From NCBI GenBank assembly GCA_030248295.1, contig JASANH010000497.1, positions 62,001-126,000 on the forward strand: DNA of 64,000 bases, given 5' to 3'. The stretch's first letter is position 1, and each line of letters begins with the position of its first letter. The stretch is from Mesodorylaimus sp. YZB2_4. Its lineage: Eukaryota > Nematoda > Enoplea > Dorylaimida > Dorylaimidae. Position numbers and translations under genes: made by a program. The notes under the pieces were generated by a model. That model saw nothing but the letters and a program-made list of their open reading frames with translations. It was not told the DNA's origin and searched no databases. Positions 1 through 47,691 of the stretch are shown piece by piece.

Positions 1-2615
1 AAGAGTAGTTATTTAAATACAGAAAAGTGGAGATTGTTCTCGTCAAGTGTTCACATCTAGATGCGAAATGCTTTATAAGGAAAAACTGAATCATTTAGTT
101 AAATTCAGTTGACTGAATCTTTTGAGATACAGTTAACTGTAACTGAAACTGAATCTATTCGGAGATTCAGTTAACTTAACTGAAAGTGAAACTGAATCTT
201 TTTTCAAAACTGTATCAACGCTAGTTCGTTCCACGGACCCGCCTGATTGAATGATCTTCGCTCCAAACCTTTCCCGTGTTAATGCGGGGTGTCGATCGAA
301 TGCGTCCATGGACATCCTGCTGTGCAGAAGGTTCTACCCACAGAAAAGACGATTCCGCGCAAAAAGAGCGCAAAGATTCAGGAGATGTATAGGCGAAAGT
401 GAGCAAGCAATTTGTGGTTGATGACTATTAATATCGTTCGTTGTCCAGTTTGACTCTCGACCCAAACATCTCGGACTCAAAGTCAAATAAGTCATGTTAG
501 ATCTCGCTGTGTTGAACGAATGCGCACAATCACGGGTGCCATCAACCATAAGCTCGAGCAGTCGTGAAAAGAAGGATGAAATCAAAGAGCGAGCAGCTGC
601 CACGAAAGATGCGACATTGCCGCTCCACAATCGATTTGTCAGCCGGCTTCAAGGCCCCAATAGCCTATCACAATCCCTCAAGGCGCACTTATAGTCGACA
701 AAATTTCTACTCCCCGACGAACGGGAGCACACTTACGGATCAAACTGATGAGAGCTGGCGCGTCGCAGCGGCACAGTGTGCCAGTGTGCCATTTCGTTGC
801 AGTCGCGAAGCTTGTGTGCGCAGTGCCGCCCAAAAAATTCAAACAGTTGAAGATACACACGGCATTCTAGCTTTGGGGGAATTTTGCTGTCAGTACAGAC
901 GGATGAAAGCAATGTCTTTCGTGAGGATAGCTCTTTCATTTGCGTTGTCTGCAAATTTTTTGCATCGGCGTTTTGATAAGAAATAAAAAATTGCAAACAA
1001 CGGACAATTTAATCGACTAGAAATGATAACCTTTACCTACCAGTTTGTACCATATCAACAAAACATAAAATCTGCTTGAGCTAGATCAACAAATTCACAC
1101 TCCACCACTTATATTCTTTGGAGACACAGCAACTGTGGATCTGCTCATCGCATTCGCCCAGGCATTCTTGCTGCTCCCTCGTCCCTTCTACGAGCTAGTC
1201 ACTCCACGAGTATCAACAAACAAGTTCCCCATCGGTCAGGGTCCAAATCAGATTCTTGTTTAATTCCAAAAAAAAATAAATTATATTTACTTGCGTTCTT
1301 TCGGGACGCGCCTTTTTGCCAGCGAAGAGAAAAGACGGGGCACTGCTTATTTTGAAAAATTCAATGTTGCAAGGATGTCGTTGTTTTTGGGAACAAATCA
1401 TCGCCCACTCGTCAGCGTGGTCCGGGCTTGGGCAGACTCCCACTCGCTCCTCCACCATGAATCAAAGCCTCGAATGTGGCTATCGGTCGGGCGGGACACC
1501 ATTTAGCGGGCTCCAAGCGAAAGGGCATAGACGGAGTGAGAGTTCCGATGCCAAAATGGGACCCATTTTGGTGAGATTGATCGTGAGCATCACATTTTCT
1601 CGACTGATACTTGAAAGTATTTTTTAGTCTCTCCGTGCCTTCCCGCCCCGACCGATGCCCAAAGTCGGGGTTTTGATTTTGTGTGGAGGCACCTGAAAGC
1701 TAGTGCGAGTTTACCAGGGCCTGGAAGACGCTGACGAGTCGATCAGGTCTTCGTCTTCAGTGCCAGCAAGCTCTGGATCGCCACGTGCGCCACCAGCCTC
1801 GGCCTGACTTTGGCCTTGATCCCTGGCAGGTACCCTCCTGATGCAATCATGCCAGTGGGATTCACGAGTCGTTCACTCTGATTTTGTCAGTCAGTCGAAT
1901 GTGTACATTTGTGTTCGGCGTTCTCTTAATCTGCGCCCCGTCAATCCGTGCCCTGTCCACACGACCCCTTTCAATCCGTGCCTTTTCAATCGACTGAATC
2001 TCCAGACTGTCCGGGCGTAACAAGAGCGACACAAGAATGCTTATTGAGCGGGTGAAATTCAAATATTCGACAAGTTGCTCAGAGCGTCTGCGTCAGCGCC
2101 TTAGCTTCCCATAGCTTCCTCTGCTTATCGCGAAGTTACACCTGGTTCCGTCGTCTAATTGCACAGAAACATGGTTTAAGTCAAAGTATGGCGTACACGC
2201 CCGTGCCATCAATCTCCCCAAACATACGTAGGTTGCTCGCTGCTCACCTGCATCTCTCTCACGCCTAAGCGGACGCGGCGTTATGATTGAAAATGAACAA
2301 ACAAGTAATTTGGTTCTGATCGGTCACCTTTTTGAGCGTCTAATTAGATAGGCTCCGAGCGAGCACCTAATTTAGTGTAGCTCGTGCACTGATTGCTCTC
2401 CTCGCCCCAGCAGACCGAGCCAACTTATTGTCGGCAGCTAGCACCGAGAATCATCTGCTCTAATGTGCGCGTGAGACGGACAATGGTCGGTGTTCGAGAG
2501 TGGTCTCCTATCGATTTGATAATCGAGACGTTGAAAAAGTGTCATTTTTGAAAAACCAAGTCCAATTTCTTATGCTATTCGGACAGTTTCTTTAGAATCA
2601 CGGGTTAAGCGTAGA
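1..2615. other. No supported gene; short CAGTTAACTGAATC-type repeats at left end
   Basis: No open frame here has coding character or convincing splice context. Positions 96-206 hold several copies of a short motif (TGAATC, CAGTTAACTG) in both orientations, a small simple-repeat patch. The stretch just before 2616 probably contains the promoter and 5' UTR of the downstream zinc-finger gene, but I see no recognisable core promoter element. Confidence 0.4.
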
Positions 2616-17984: not shown

Positions 17985-37185
<19,201 letters not shown>

Positions 37186-42949: not shown

Positions 42950-44495
42950 TTACGTCAATTTTCGACTCGCGCTCGCCATCGCAGCGCTTTCTGAGATCGA
43001 CAAGTCGACCATGACTTCCGACTGAGCACCCGGCCTGGTGGCACTGGTGGCAGCGTCACTGCTCGTTTTCAGCCTCGAACACATCGCAGCTTTCTTCGTC
43101 AGTTGCTGCTGTCTTCTGGTTGTGACCTTGTTCTTATTGACCAAGACCACAGTTGTTACGATGATCGCGACGATCAGGATGAGAGCGGCTACAGCAACGA
43201 TCACGCCGATAAGCATCATGCTCATGCCGTCGCCCGTCTTCTCATCTTCTCTGACGTTTGGCTTTGCGACTTCCCCAGTTGAGGTGACTCCGCCATCCTT
43301 TGCAGATGTACTTGATGCAGCCATTTTTCCCGGAGTCGTTTTCTCAGTCGTCGTCTTCGACGGGATCGCGGGCGTCGTGAATTCAGTAGTAGTTCGTATC
43401 GCACTTGCGGCAGTGTCTGTCGAGATCGTCGTCGAGATCGCAGTATTGGCGGTGGTGGCAGTTTTAGAAGCTGCCGAGACAATTAGCGTTGATGTCGCCT
43501 CCAGCGTCGTCGTAGTCGTACTCGTTGGGCACGGCTCGCAGTCGATGTGGTGCAGGCAGTTTTCCATTCCTGGAGGCGCTTGACTGGCGGGATTTCTCTC
43601 GATCCTACCGCAGGCGCCTGTGCAGTTGGGCTGTCGTTCCCAAGGCCACTGGCGATCGCACTCCTTCACGCAATCCTTCTCGCCGCACGTCAGGACGTCG
43701 CTCGGAGTCACAGTCTGACACTTGGCATTAGAGTCGCCAAAAGGGTCGGGCGTACTTCCCTGACGACGCGCGTCGGGCTTACACGTTTTTCGATCTTTAT
43801 CCTGGAATCGACAGATGGTGCACACGTCTTGCGTGATGAGATCCTTGAATCGCCAGGCTTCCTCGACTGTGCTGTTGAACAGATTACTGTGTGGCACGCC
43901 CCTGTTCCTCTTCGGAGCGAAGGTTTGAGAGTAATTTTTCACATCCTCGGCGTCTTCCAAGTAAATGACGTAGTGAAAGACGCCCATTTTCTGCATCCTG
44001 CAGAAATTTCTGCACCGCTTTCTGCGTTTTTTCCTAATTGCTCGTGAAATGTTCAAAGTAGAGGAATACCAGCTTTGATCGGTCCTGCTTGAAGTCGAAT
44101 ACGTGTTCTCGAAGGTAGATTAGAGCGATATCTTGGCTCTGAAAGAGTGGGAAGCGCCATGGCGGGAAGTGGTCGATGAAGGCCTGGTAGTCGTTGACGT
44201 CACCTGAAAGATTGAACCAGATTGTCGGTGGGTCTGGACGAGATGTATCTCTGGCGTCAATGATGGCAACTCGCACTTTGTCTTCGCCCAGCTCGAAATA
44301 GTTTGGCAGTCGCGACAGCGAAGACTTGACGTAGTCGTGGTAGTGCTGAGCATGAGATTGAGTGACGGTGATGAAGGCAACGTCCAGCTTGCCACTGATC
44401 TTTTCAATGTTTGAGGTGCGGCTGAGCGATATGGCAGCCATGACCAGCATGTGGACGACCAGAGAAGACGCAGAATTGGAACTAGATTGGGCCAT
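42950..44495 (-). pseudogene. Disrupted copy of the vWA-TSP1-mucin membrane protein (copy 1)
   Basis: Close paralogue of the intact gene at 45672-47252, same strand, single-exon. The reading frame opens at 44495 (MAQSSSNSASS) and runs 153 codons to a TAG at 44034-44036, where copy 2 has TGG (Trp). About 20 bp further on, 15 bases including a perfect 16-bp palindrome (TGCAGAAATTTCTGCA) replace 5 bases of copy 2, a net +10 that shifts frame. After that the frame is intact through vWA end, TSP1-like repeat, Thr-rich stalk, TM helix (MMLIGVIVAVAALILIVAII) and tail to a stop at 42950. An unrecognised intron removing both lesions seems unlikely. Near-identity in the ectodomain suggests recent duplication or gene conversion. 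Confidence 0.75.
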
Positions 44496-45031
44496 ATTTA
44501 GTTTTCGCAAGTGCAAGTCGTGAATCTCGATTCAGGTTAGGATCGACAACGCAGAGAGCGTTAACCGATGCCAGAACACGCAGCGCGAGTCGACAGACCA
44601 AGTGAGCACAGCGCACTCTGGGATAACAGTTCTGAAGGACAGTTTTCAGTATGAGAGGGCCGCACTTTACAATGCTCATCTGCTTACGTGATGTCTGTCG
44701 CAATGAAGCGCCATGGATTAACGCTCACATTACAGCCAAGGAGAAGCAGCTTCGATCCACGACTTTGCGATATGTTCTCCTTCTCATGCCAAGTAAACGG
44801 TCCTCTGTGGCTCACTCTTCGTTTCTGTTGCTGACACCAGCAGTTCTGCTACGCTTGTCGCGAAGGCAGTAAAACACAGCTTGTGCCATGCTGACGATCA
44901 GTCGCTCTTCGTCAGCCAGCCAGAGCAGCCGCTTGTCCACATGCTCTTTCACAAAGTATAATCTCGCCATATGCCATTTTGGAGATGGCCTGTGAAGCCC
45001 CTTAAATCAAGTGCATATTTCTCTTGCTTGA

Positions 45032-45074
45032 AGCCTTGAACCTGAAGATCACTGTGATCTTCAGGTTCAAGGCT
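45032..45074. repeat. 43-bp near-perfect palindrome
   Basis: Left arm AGCCTTGAACCTGAAGATCA and right arm TGATCTTCAGGTTCAAGGCT are exact reverse complements of 20 bp around the 3-base centre CTG. It lies about 540 bp upstream of copy 1. Upstream of copy 2 only one arm is present (near 47483-47500, TGATCTTCTGGTTCAAG), so the inverted duplication is specific to copy 1. Confidence 0.9.
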
Positions 45075-45671
45075 AACTGTAGTGACACGCAACTCATTGG
45101 CTCGAAGCAAGATAATGTGAAGCAGATCAAGGCTCATCCGAATTGGCTGCGTCTGAGAGTCCCGCTAGCAAAATGACGTTTGTGAAGAGCTACAGTAACA
45201 AAAAGGCGAGTGGAAAGGGAGGGATTTGGTGATCACGAAGCTGGCACATCCGGATTGTAGGGACCACAGCTGAGGCTAAAAACGGGGTGAAAATTGTCGA
45301 TTTCTCCCATGCCTCTTCGATTTCGCCAGCGAGAGTGGACTGACAATGAAAACGAAGCATAGGCTGGTTCATTTAGAATTTAAAAGTTGGCTGTTTAATG
45401 CGAACGATTGCTGTCAAAGTTCAAAAACTGACTTGTGGAAAACGAGGGGTACATGCTAGAGTATAAACCAGCATCGACGACTTATTTGACTCAATAGACT
45501 TCTTGCACAGGCTGAAACGCAATAAGCATGATTGGAATCCATAGATCAATTAGTCATCAAGACCAGAAAAACTGTAACTAAGAGAAAGTTACACGCAGAC
45601 TCATGACGATTTCTTGACAAAGACTATTTTTCAATAATCACTTTCATCAAGTTTGATGAAATCGAGTCACT

Positions 45672-47252
45672 TTACGAGTTTGGTTTCATGGATTTGGCAC
45701 CAGGTTTCATCGACATTCGACTATGTTTCGTCGACTTGCGATCGCGGCTCATCATCGCTGTGCTTTCTGAGATCGACAAGTCAGCCTTGACATCCGACTG
45801 AGCACCACCCACCCTGGTGGCACCAGTAGCAACTTCATGGCCCTTTATCTGCTTCGAAGACATCGTAGCGTTCTTCTTTGTTATTTGCTGTTGTCTCTCA
45901 GCCGCAGCCTTCTTCTTCTTGACCAAGACCACAGCGGCGATGATCACGACGATCAGGATGACAGCGATCACAGCAACGATGATGCCAATAAGCATCATGC
46001 TCATGCCGTCACCTGTCTTATCATCGCCTGTGACGTTCGGCTTCGCGTCCTCTCCACTTGTGCTCGATTTGTCCATTTTTCTAGGAGCCGTTTCCAGAGT
46101 CGGCGTCGAGGTCGTTTCTTGGGTCGTGGGCTTGGTGGTTGTTGGCATCGTACTCGCGGCTGTGAAGGTTACAGCGGCGGCTGTCGAAGTCGTCGTCGGC
46201 GTTGGCGTTGATGCAGCAGTAGTGCTGGTGGTCGCAGTTTCTGTGGGCGTCCATAGTGTTGACATCGTCGTCGTCGTAGTCGTACTCGTTGTTGGGCATG
46301 GCTCGCAGTCGATGTGCTCCAGACAGTTTTCCATTCCTGGAGGCGCTTGACTGGCGGGATTTCTCTCGATCCTACCGCAGGCGCCTGTGCAGTTGGGCTG
46401 TCGTTCCCAAGGCCACTGGCGATCGCACTCCTTCACGCAATCCTCCTCGCCGCACGTCAGGACGTCGCTCGGAGTCACAGTCTGACACTTGGCATTAGAG
46501 TCGCCGAAAGGGTCGGGCGTACTTCCCTGACGACGCGCGTCGGGCTTACACGTTTTTCGATCTTTATCCTGGAATCGACAGATGGTGCACACGTCTTGCG
46601 TGATGAGATCCTTGAATCGCCAGGCTTCCTCGACTGTGCTGTTGAACAGATTACTGTGTGGCACGCCCCTGTTCCTCTTCGGAGCGAAGGTTTGAGAGTA
46701 ATTTTTCACATCCTCGGCGTCTTCCAAGTAAATGACGTAGTGAAAGACGCCCATTTTCTGCATCCGTTCCACCGCTTTCTGCGTTTTTTCCCAATTGCTC
46801 GTGAAATGTTCAAAGTAGAGGAATACCATCTTTGATCGGTCCTGTTTGAAGTCGAATACGTGTTCTCGAAGGTAGATCAGAGCGATATCGTGGCTCTGAA
46901 AGAGTGGGAAGCGCCATGGCGGGAAGTGGTCGATGAAGGCCTGGTAGTCGTTGACGTCACCTGAAAGATTGAACCAGATTGTCGGCGGGAGTGGACGAGA
47001 TTGTCCTGCAGCGTCAATAACGGCTACGCGGACGTTGTCTTCGCCAAGCTCGAAATAGTTTGGCAGACGCGACAGCGAAGCCTTGACGTAGTCGTGGTAG
47101 TGCTGAGCATGAGATTGAGTGACGGTGATGAAGGCAATGTCCATTTTCCCACTGATCTTTTCAATGTTTGAGGTGCGGCTGAGCGATATGGCAGCCTTGA
47201 CCAGCATGTGGACGACCAGAGAAGACGCAGAATTGGAACTAGATTGGGCCAT
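45672..47252 (-). CDS. Type I membrane protein: vWA-like domain, TSP1-like repeat, Thr-rich stalk, TM helix
   Basis: Intronless, 526 codons from MAQSSSNSASS; the frame stays open upstream to 47498, but copy 1 supports this start. A weak hydrophobic leader (SLVVHMLVKAAISLS) is followed by about 190 residues with the vWA pattern: MDIAFITVT strand, NVRVAVID strand, helix DIALIYLREHVF, strand KMVFLYFEHF, VERMQKMGVFHYVIYL. The MIDAS DxSxS and TDG motifs are absent. A Cys cluster and a TSP1-like WPWERQPNCTGACGR...PPGMENC follow, then about 90 residues of Thr/Ser/Pro mucin-like stalk, TM helix GIIVAVIAVILIVVIIAAVV, stop-transfer KKKK and a basic Ser-rich tail. Likely a heavily O-glycosylated surface adhesion or receptor protein; ligand unknown. 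The architecture resembles apicomplexan TRAP adhesins, presumably by convergence. Confidence 0.75.
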   Translation of the reverse strand: MAQSSSNSASSLVVHMLVKAAISLSRTSNIEKISGKMDIAFITVTQSHAQHYHDYVKASLSRLPNYFELGEDNVRVAVIDAAGQSRPLPPTIWFNLSGDVNDYQAFIDHFPPWRFPLFQSHDIALIYLREHVFDFKQDRSKMVFLYFEHFTSNWEKTQKAVERMQKMGVFHYVIYLEDAEDVKNYSQTFAPKRNRGVPHSNLFNSTVEEAWRFKDLITQDVCTICRFQDKDRKTCKPDARRQGSTPDPFGDSNAKCQTVTPSDVLTCGEEDCVKECDRQWPWERQPNCTGACGRIERNPASQAPPGMENCLEHIDCEPCPTTSTTTTTTMSTLWTPTETATTSTTAASTPTPTTTSTAAAVTFTAASTMPTTTKPTTQETTSTPTLETAPRKMDKSSTSGEDAKPNVTGDDKTGDGMSMMLIGIIVAVIAVILIVVIIAAVVLVKKKKAAAERQQQITKKNATMSSKQIKGHEVATGATRVGGAQSDVKADLSISESTAMMSRDRKSTKHSRMSMKPGAKSMKPNS

Positions 47253-47691
47253 ATTTAGTTTTTGCAGGCGGAAGTAGTGAATCTCGATTTCGACGCTGAT
47301 CGACAAAGACGATGAGACTTTGAGAAGGAGCGCGCAGGAAGCGTTGCGCGATGACAATAAACCCAGAACGAGTCGACAGGGCGAGTACACAGAGCGCATA
47401 CATGAATGACTGTTTCTAAGCATGCTCGAGCTTGAGCGGCTGTACTTTACAATTCGCATCTGCCCAGTCCCCGTCCACTGCTTGATCTTCTGGTTCAAGA
47501 CTTACTGTAGCGATATTCACCACATTGGCTGTGTCTGAGAATATGCTAGCAAAGATGACGTTTGAGAGCGCTAACAAGAAGGCGAGGGAAAGAGAGGGAT
47601 TTGGTGATCGGGAAGCCGATCTGGTCAGCCATAGCGCACTGCGGATATGACAGCTGAATCATTGAACATACGGGGTCGTGGGCAGTCTTAC

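Follow-up and report, generated by a model that had tools for sequence, protein, structure and literature searches.

Several described systems bear on the gene treated here. In the apicomplexan adhesins TRAP and MIC2, a von Willebrand factor A (vWA) head with a metal ion-dependent adhesion site (MIDAS) is followed by a thrombospondin type 1 repeat (TSR), and the acidic tail ends in Trp. The anthrax toxin receptor is laid out as a vWA head, a second extracellular module and a transmembrane (TM) helix. We know of no diversified nematode surface-receptor repertoire built on vWA domains and, to our knowledge, no receptor repertoire of such a kind is known from animals. We also found no description of such a family among the open-access papers listed by our literature searches, which is weak evidence of novelty. 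The gene in question lies on the minus strand at 45672-47252 of a 64,000-nt stretch of the 145-Mb genome of the nematode Mesodorylaimus sp. YZB2_4 (G000:C150:62001-126000; hereafter the window, the whole stretch analysed, whose own numbering is used unless a contig or locus is named). The locus is best read as a tandem pair, a gene and a pseudogene, belonging to an extensive family of type I membrane-type proteins in this nematode.

An earlier note on this DNA had proposed, for the product of the gene, a leader, a vWA-like fold, a Cys cluster with a TSP1-like repeat, a Thr-rich stalk, one TM helix and a short basic tail. The leader, the stalk, the single helix and the basic tail are all borne out by the sequence, its Kyte-Doolittle hydropathy (KD) and its charge. 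The gene and its parts, with the evidence for each, are as follows.

45672-47252, minus strand: gene in a single exon, its frame uninterrupted over 526 codons and closed by a stop (frame; alignment with 47 other open family frames)
47172-47252, minus strand: hydrophobic leader, residues 1-27 (best N-terminal 9-mer KD 1.92)
46614-47144, minus strand: vWA-like head, residues ~37-213, MIDAS residues substituted (profiles A2 and A5, defined below; MIDAS columns)
46287-46589, minus strand: Cys module, residues 222-322, containing the motifs WPW and CG..R, of no known family (alignment A3, defined below)
46008-46286, minus strand: Thr/Ser-rich stalk, residues 323-415 (sequence)
45912-45995, minus strand: TM helix, residues ~420-447 (KD 3.78 over 19 residues)
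45675-45911, minus strand: basic tail, residues 448-526 (net charge +13, no Trp)

The possibility that the frame is a chance artefact is excluded on sequence grounds, because of its length, its alignment with the 47 other open frames and the mostly purifying selection acting on it. Window-wide, the only stop-to-stop frames longer than 350 aa are those of this family.

Searched against the whole genome, the window protein gave 109 matches, and three further queries gave 89 (L054), 104 (L057) and 74 (L060). The matches of the first three queries (window protein, L054 and L057) merged into 153 loci on 68 contigs, with 16 loci each on C11 and C55. At 94 of the 153, the match was free of stops and the open frame spanned 350 aa or more. 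Correction makes this about 95: C97:180222 (L070) is broken in the sequence, and the open C533:16633 and C199:25687 had been merged with broken neighbours and so overlooked. The L060 query added about 20 loci, bringing the family to at least about 173. Eight of the additions are weak (E 1.8e-5 to 3.6e-10); among these eight, reading of the sequence showed L071 and L073 to be family members, the latter with a stop. Loci were merged by hand (156 rows from 302 match rows, plus 20 rows from the fourth query), and the counts are lower bounds, as the genome searches score the best candidates only. The remark in the earlier note that no family could be recognised stands for the Cys module and falls for the gene, which is a member of a large native family. 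A viral origin was set aside after a search, reaching close relatives only, found no relative among viral contigs.

The reference set comprised the stop-to-stop frames of at least 380 aa (n = 50). Leaving out L002, which is one half of the broken copy, and L043, whose start is uncertain, gave alignment A1 with 48 rows; A2 has 47 rows (A1 minus L051), and A3 consists of 31 of those 47, picked for presence of the Cys module. Single-frame openness was confirmed in the sequence for 48 family members. From the chosen ATG the 48 frames measure 387-787 aa, although L039 has no ATG at the expected place. By script, all 48 rows have a hydrophobic N-terminus (9-mer KD ≥ 1.8) and 47 have a C-terminal TM helix. 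The tail is net positive in 48/48 rows, a value that is meaningless for L057 (no TM helix) and carries little weight for L053 (6-residue tail). Eleven columns of the 48-frame alignment are nearly invariant, eight of them Cys. L057 (1375-2565, plus strand) lacks a normal TM helix and has a short hydrophobic C-terminus, a possible lipid-anchor signal; contig C55 carries many of its closest relatives. Five VWA-matching places lie within 27 kb at G000:C312:68385-95488, in frames of 241-513 aa; they are perhaps another intronless branch and may extend the family.

The vWA assignment of the head is supported by profile searches. Against the PDB, A2 matched collagen VI alpha-3 (E 1e-67 summed over repeats, best single repeat 1.8e-8), mussel PTMP1 (2e-20), integrin alpha-1 (2.8e-9, colinear with the I domain), MIC2 (8e-6) and anthrax toxin receptor 1 (3e-5). 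Because A2 includes MIDAS-bearing rows, we built the 44-row profile A5, from which L047, L055 and L060, the branch with those rows, were removed. A5 still matched collagen VI (2.6e-47), PTMP1 (8.6e-13) and integrin alpha-2 (6.4e-6) and, more weakly, MIC2 (0.0087) and the anthrax toxin receptor (0.013). Moreover, 22 of the 48 members matched Pfam VWA at E ≤ 0.1, the best at 1.4e-26. A vWA-like head, as suspected earlier, is thus supported by profile, with and without the MIDAS-bearing branch. The MIDAS itself is complete in only three of 49 rows (L060, L071 and L072), and L055 has all of it but the Thr. The DxSxS motif is gone in 45/49 rows, including the window protein, which, judged by these columns, is a metal-dead vWA.

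The family shares with the animal vWA and I domains of collagen VI alpha-3, PTMP1 and integrins alpha-1 and alpha-2 a colinear profile match, and differs from them in the loss of the MIDAS in those 45 rows, in having one domain copy per protein and in its other module context. With TRAP and MIC2, the window protein has in common the order of vWA head, Cys-rich module, stalk, TM helix and short tail. It differs in the missing MIDAS, in the absence of a recognisable TSR, in a net basic tail and in its setting, an animal genome with native relatives. The earlier description as TRAP-like is therefore apt for the rough layout only; the lost MIDAS and the basic tail do not fit it. Proteins of the anthrax toxin receptor type likewise have one vWA head and a type I membrane-type layout, and match the profiles weakly, whereas the family has lost the MIDAS, carries another Cys module and has many members. 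The RIFINs of Plasmodium resemble the family in their many copies, variable exposed region and conserved membrane part; they are unrelated, and the weak RIFIN matches obtained were confined to the stalk and TM helix.

Within the 24-row clade to which the window protein belongs, variability is concentrated on one side of the head. The former metal-face loops there have an entropy of 2.71 bits, compared with 0.86 for the opposite-face loops and 1.05 for the strands (permutation p 5e-5). Loop faces were assigned from the known vWA topology and the integrin alignment. Over ten pairs that do not overlap on the tree, the ratio of nonsynonymous to synonymous differences per site (pN/pS) stood at 0.33 for the Cys module, at 0.41 for the strands and helices of the vWA domain and at 0.77 for the metal-face loops, the loops differing from the core with Fisher p 4e-6. 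Values above 1 occurred in single pairs, namely up to 5.2 in the leader, where only 12-27 codons are compared, and 1.08 in the head of L025/L026. We must also note that L025/L026 and L028/L029 are mosaic pairs, in which diverged heads (nonsynonymous divergence dN 0.12 and 0.35) sit on near-identical Cys modules and tails. By its location, the loop variability suggests, short of proof, diversifying selection on the metal-face loops.

We are inclined, with slightly better than even confidence, to read the family as diversified recognition or adhesion molecules built on the vWA head. The proteins would sit at the cell surface, where the Cys module and the Thr-rich stalk would keep the head off the membrane and the variable face would bind differing ligands without metal. 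Together, the members would act as a diverse recognition or adhesion set, spread by DNA-level duplication that included the promoter region, with birth-and-death evolution and gene conversion at work. Several points weigh against this reading. The window protein alone reached only E 0.009 against Pfam VWA, short of the cut-off. The loop contrast is weaker in the 21 other rows (3.01, 2.14 and 1.89 bits for metal-face loops, opposite-face loops and strands), and helix a5, which is not a loop, is equally variable (2.17 bits, ratio 0.82). All segments of the ten-pair analysis have pN/pS below 1, so relaxed constraint can account for the variable loops. In addition, loop and segment boundaries were chosen after the alignment had been seen and were then held against the integrin alignment, and the model of the upstream element described below was trained on 32 sites from its own test sequences.

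A different view, which we regard as doubtful, is that the heads are merely structural or part of a coat, with loops drifting under relaxed constraint and copy number reflecting the dosage of a mucin-like surface coat. The metal-face loops, at pN/pS 0.67-0.88, stay below 1, helix a5 varies as well, the MIDAS is lost and the stalks are variable (2.01 bits). Nevertheless, the 24-row clade shows strong conservation of the opposite-face loops, which indicates that loops at large are not free to drift, and purifying selection acts on the Cys module. Two further proposals are special cases of recognition. In one, to which we give a similarly low probability, the proteins are sperm or egg surface proteins diversifying under sexual conflict. 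The single upstream element common to most aligned members suggests one expression programme, and nematode major sperm protein genes are likewise largely intronless and clustered; the element is, however, not one known to us from sperm genes. The other, rather unlikely and conditional on the worm being a parasite, makes them variant adhesins or antigens on the surface that meets a host; the large family, the variable head and the mosaic copies agree with it. The recognition or adhesion reading in its general form covers both.

The Cys module was expected to contain a TSP1 repeat, and this was not borne out at the sequence level. Its cysteines are incomplete (fewer than eight) in L038, L051 and L062, and the W[PKR]W motif occurs in 37 of 48 rows. 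None of 31 Cys modules matched TSP_1 in a Pfam search at E ≤ 5. The module of the window protein gave no Pfam match at all; those of the 31 members gave four unrelated weak names, none of them a TSR. Against the PDB, the Cys-module profile returned one non-significant match (E 0.76) and no TSR, while a single human TSR used as query found the TSRs of TRAP and CSP, weakly. A genome-wide TSP_1 search gave at least 122 matches (150 of 214 candidates scored), and none of the 122 listed sits at a family locus, as judged by comparing coordinates by eye. With hhalign, the module against a TSR profile reached 23% for the whole module and 39% for its second half, over 21 columns, the aligned part being the PW..C..CG..R stretch only. 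Two properdin TSRs used as a control gave 97% and 95%; the control is lenient because three of the six TSRs in the profile are other properdin TSRs. On these values and the 0/31 TSP_1 matches, TSP1 membership of the module was rejected on sequence. The module may still be a strongly diverged TSR. L071 and L072 retain cysteines and lack WPW and CG; the TSR-like motif may thus be of within-family origin. The Pfam and NCBIfam names TMEM154, EVI2A, Protocadherin and RIFIN were taken as composition matches, since the stretches shown are stalk and TM helix. Elsewhere in the genome, TSP_1 repeats occur in very long unbroken frames at C83:379886, C83:413929, C63:238768 and C18:1009731-1012274 (1649, 1394, 1524 and 939 aa), so that surface-type genes with one long exon may be commoner in this genome.

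The note had further described an intronless tandem gene pair. The description stands for 45672-47252 and not for its neighbour at 42950-44495, in which an in-frame stop and, just past it, a 10-bp insertion split the reading frame into pieces of 153 and 348 aa; the neighbour is therefore a pseudogene. Tandem duplication itself is confirmed: the unit measures ~2.77 kb, and both copies are similar across the gene and its flanks. The following two features belong to this pair.

42950-44495, minus strand: tandem copy, now a pseudogene, broken by a stop in frame after codon 153 and a 10-bp insertion (sequence; copy-to-copy alignment)
46507-46765, minus strand: 259-bp run identical between the copies, probable gene-conversion tract (permutation p 0.0002)

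Aligned over 1513 bases, the two copies show 87% identity. Their longest identical run compares with a mean of 41 bp after the differences were shuffled, and the synonymous divergence (dS) is uneven across four stretches (0.13, 0.03, 0.34 and 0.96). The identical run and the uneven dS make gene conversion between the window copies probable. Between the copies lies a perfect hairpin (45032-45074) with 20-bp arms and a loop of 3 bases. Two more family fragments are found on the same contig outside the window, at C150:38895-39981 (with stops) and C150:209390-209863.

Two relatives bear on the origin of the family. L071 (C182) and L072 (C101) both encode a complete-MIDAS head along with a Cys module and a TM helix. 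In both, the reading frames imply a 55-bp GT-AG intron in phase 0, at one shared site that separates the head from the Cys module. They group against the other 47 rows with support of 100/99, in a tree rooted on that split, and the 48 aligned frames are without this intron. Either the intron was lost in the large branch or it was gained in the L071/L072 line; the two are equally possible. The family, as these relatives indicate, is native to the genome and close to spliced genes. The tails of L071 and L072 are long and Tyr-rich, with NYIKLP and GYLKLP in L071, whereas those of the large branch are basic.

Most aligned members also share a sequence element upstream of the gene, which in the window is found ahead of both copies.

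47444-47451, minus strand: upstream element TGTAAAGT, 199 bp ahead of the ATG of the open frame (word search)
44664-44671, minus strand: upstream element TGTAAAGT, 176 bp ahead of the ATG of the broken copy (word search)

These are two of the three occurrences of TGTAAAGT in the window. The upstream set consisted of 51 segments, from the 48 members, the broken copy and, as short pieces, L071 and L072. Within 260 bp before the ATG, TGTAAAG occurs 33 times (2.54 per kb, in 31 of the 51 segments), compared with twice (0.06 per kb) at -1000 to -300; the antisense word occurs 8 times. With a 17-column model (consensus GCAGTGTAAAGT.GAG), 39 of the 48 members outscore each of 48 control segments, a count that is partly circular because of the training sites mentioned above. 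The element is absent from the L047/L055/L060 branch, to which the full-MIDAS L060 belongs, and also from L006, L032, L035, L054, L057 and L062. Genome-wide, a 13-base form is present at 37 places versus 10 for a reversed control, from which no conclusion is drawn. At the 5 of those 37 places that were read, in four stretches (L074-L077), no aligned family member was found at E ≤ 0.01. One of these stretches, L074, has a single frame of 350 aa (212-1264, plus strand), which we take to resemble an alpha-1,4-glycosyltransferase.

In view of the shared element, the copies seem to have moved as DNA together with their promoter region, and not by repeated retroposition. A retrogene family, in which every copy was reverse-transcribed from a spliced mRNA, is consequently improbable. 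It would explain why the 48 aligned frames are without the intron of L071 and L072, but the 39 members with the element and the likeness of the window pair in both flanks speak against it, and a single loss of one short intron suffices, a gain in the L071/L072 line being equally possible. Retroposition as the mode of spread, one of two origins suggested in the note, is thus not borne out, while one ancient intron loss may have occurred. The other origin, horizontal acquisition, taken here as the arrival of a TRAP-like gene from a donor such as an apicomplexan, is most improbable: the rough domain order and the A2 match to the MIC2 vWA are in its favour, yet A2 prefers animal vWA domains (collagen VI, PTMP1 and integrins), removal of the MIDAS-bearing branch weakens MIC2 while integrin alpha-2 holds, the module has no recognised TSR, the tail is basic, and relatives bearing both intron and MIDAS share the genome, which makes such an acquisition unnecessary.

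Elsewhere in the window, the minus-strand frame at 17985-19001 ends in SEQEDWC, which presumably marks the C-terminal end of a Cav2 calcium channel, and the frames at 22246-22752 and 34395-34949 (minus strand) look, we assume, like calcium-channel exons. The third TGTAAAGT lies at 19658, near the frame with the calcium-channel-like C-terminus. An Rfam scan of the window gave no matches, and the matches of a scan for bacterial-type promoters were not above chance. At the genome level, nematode origin is seen in 133 above-cut-off matches to Col_cuticle_N, a family of nematode cuticle collagens; Chitin_bind_4 gave no match anywhere, a result that rules nothing out, and an SL1 RNA search aimed at the clade of the worm had no hit, nor did any control.

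The recognition or adhesion reading can be put in a fuller form, which we offer tentatively and with clearly less confidence than the general one. It would be a germline-encoded nematode recognition repertoire on a metal-dead vWA domain, with hypervariable loops, a lost intron, a gained promoter element and ~170 loci, among which conversion would shuffle heads and tails. The ~95 open single-exon frames are a testable candidate for a system of self/non-self, mate or pathogen recognition. The family would also provide a worked case in which a metal-dependent adhesion fold loses its metal and its loops then diversify, while relatives bearing the MIDAS and the intron persist in the same genome.

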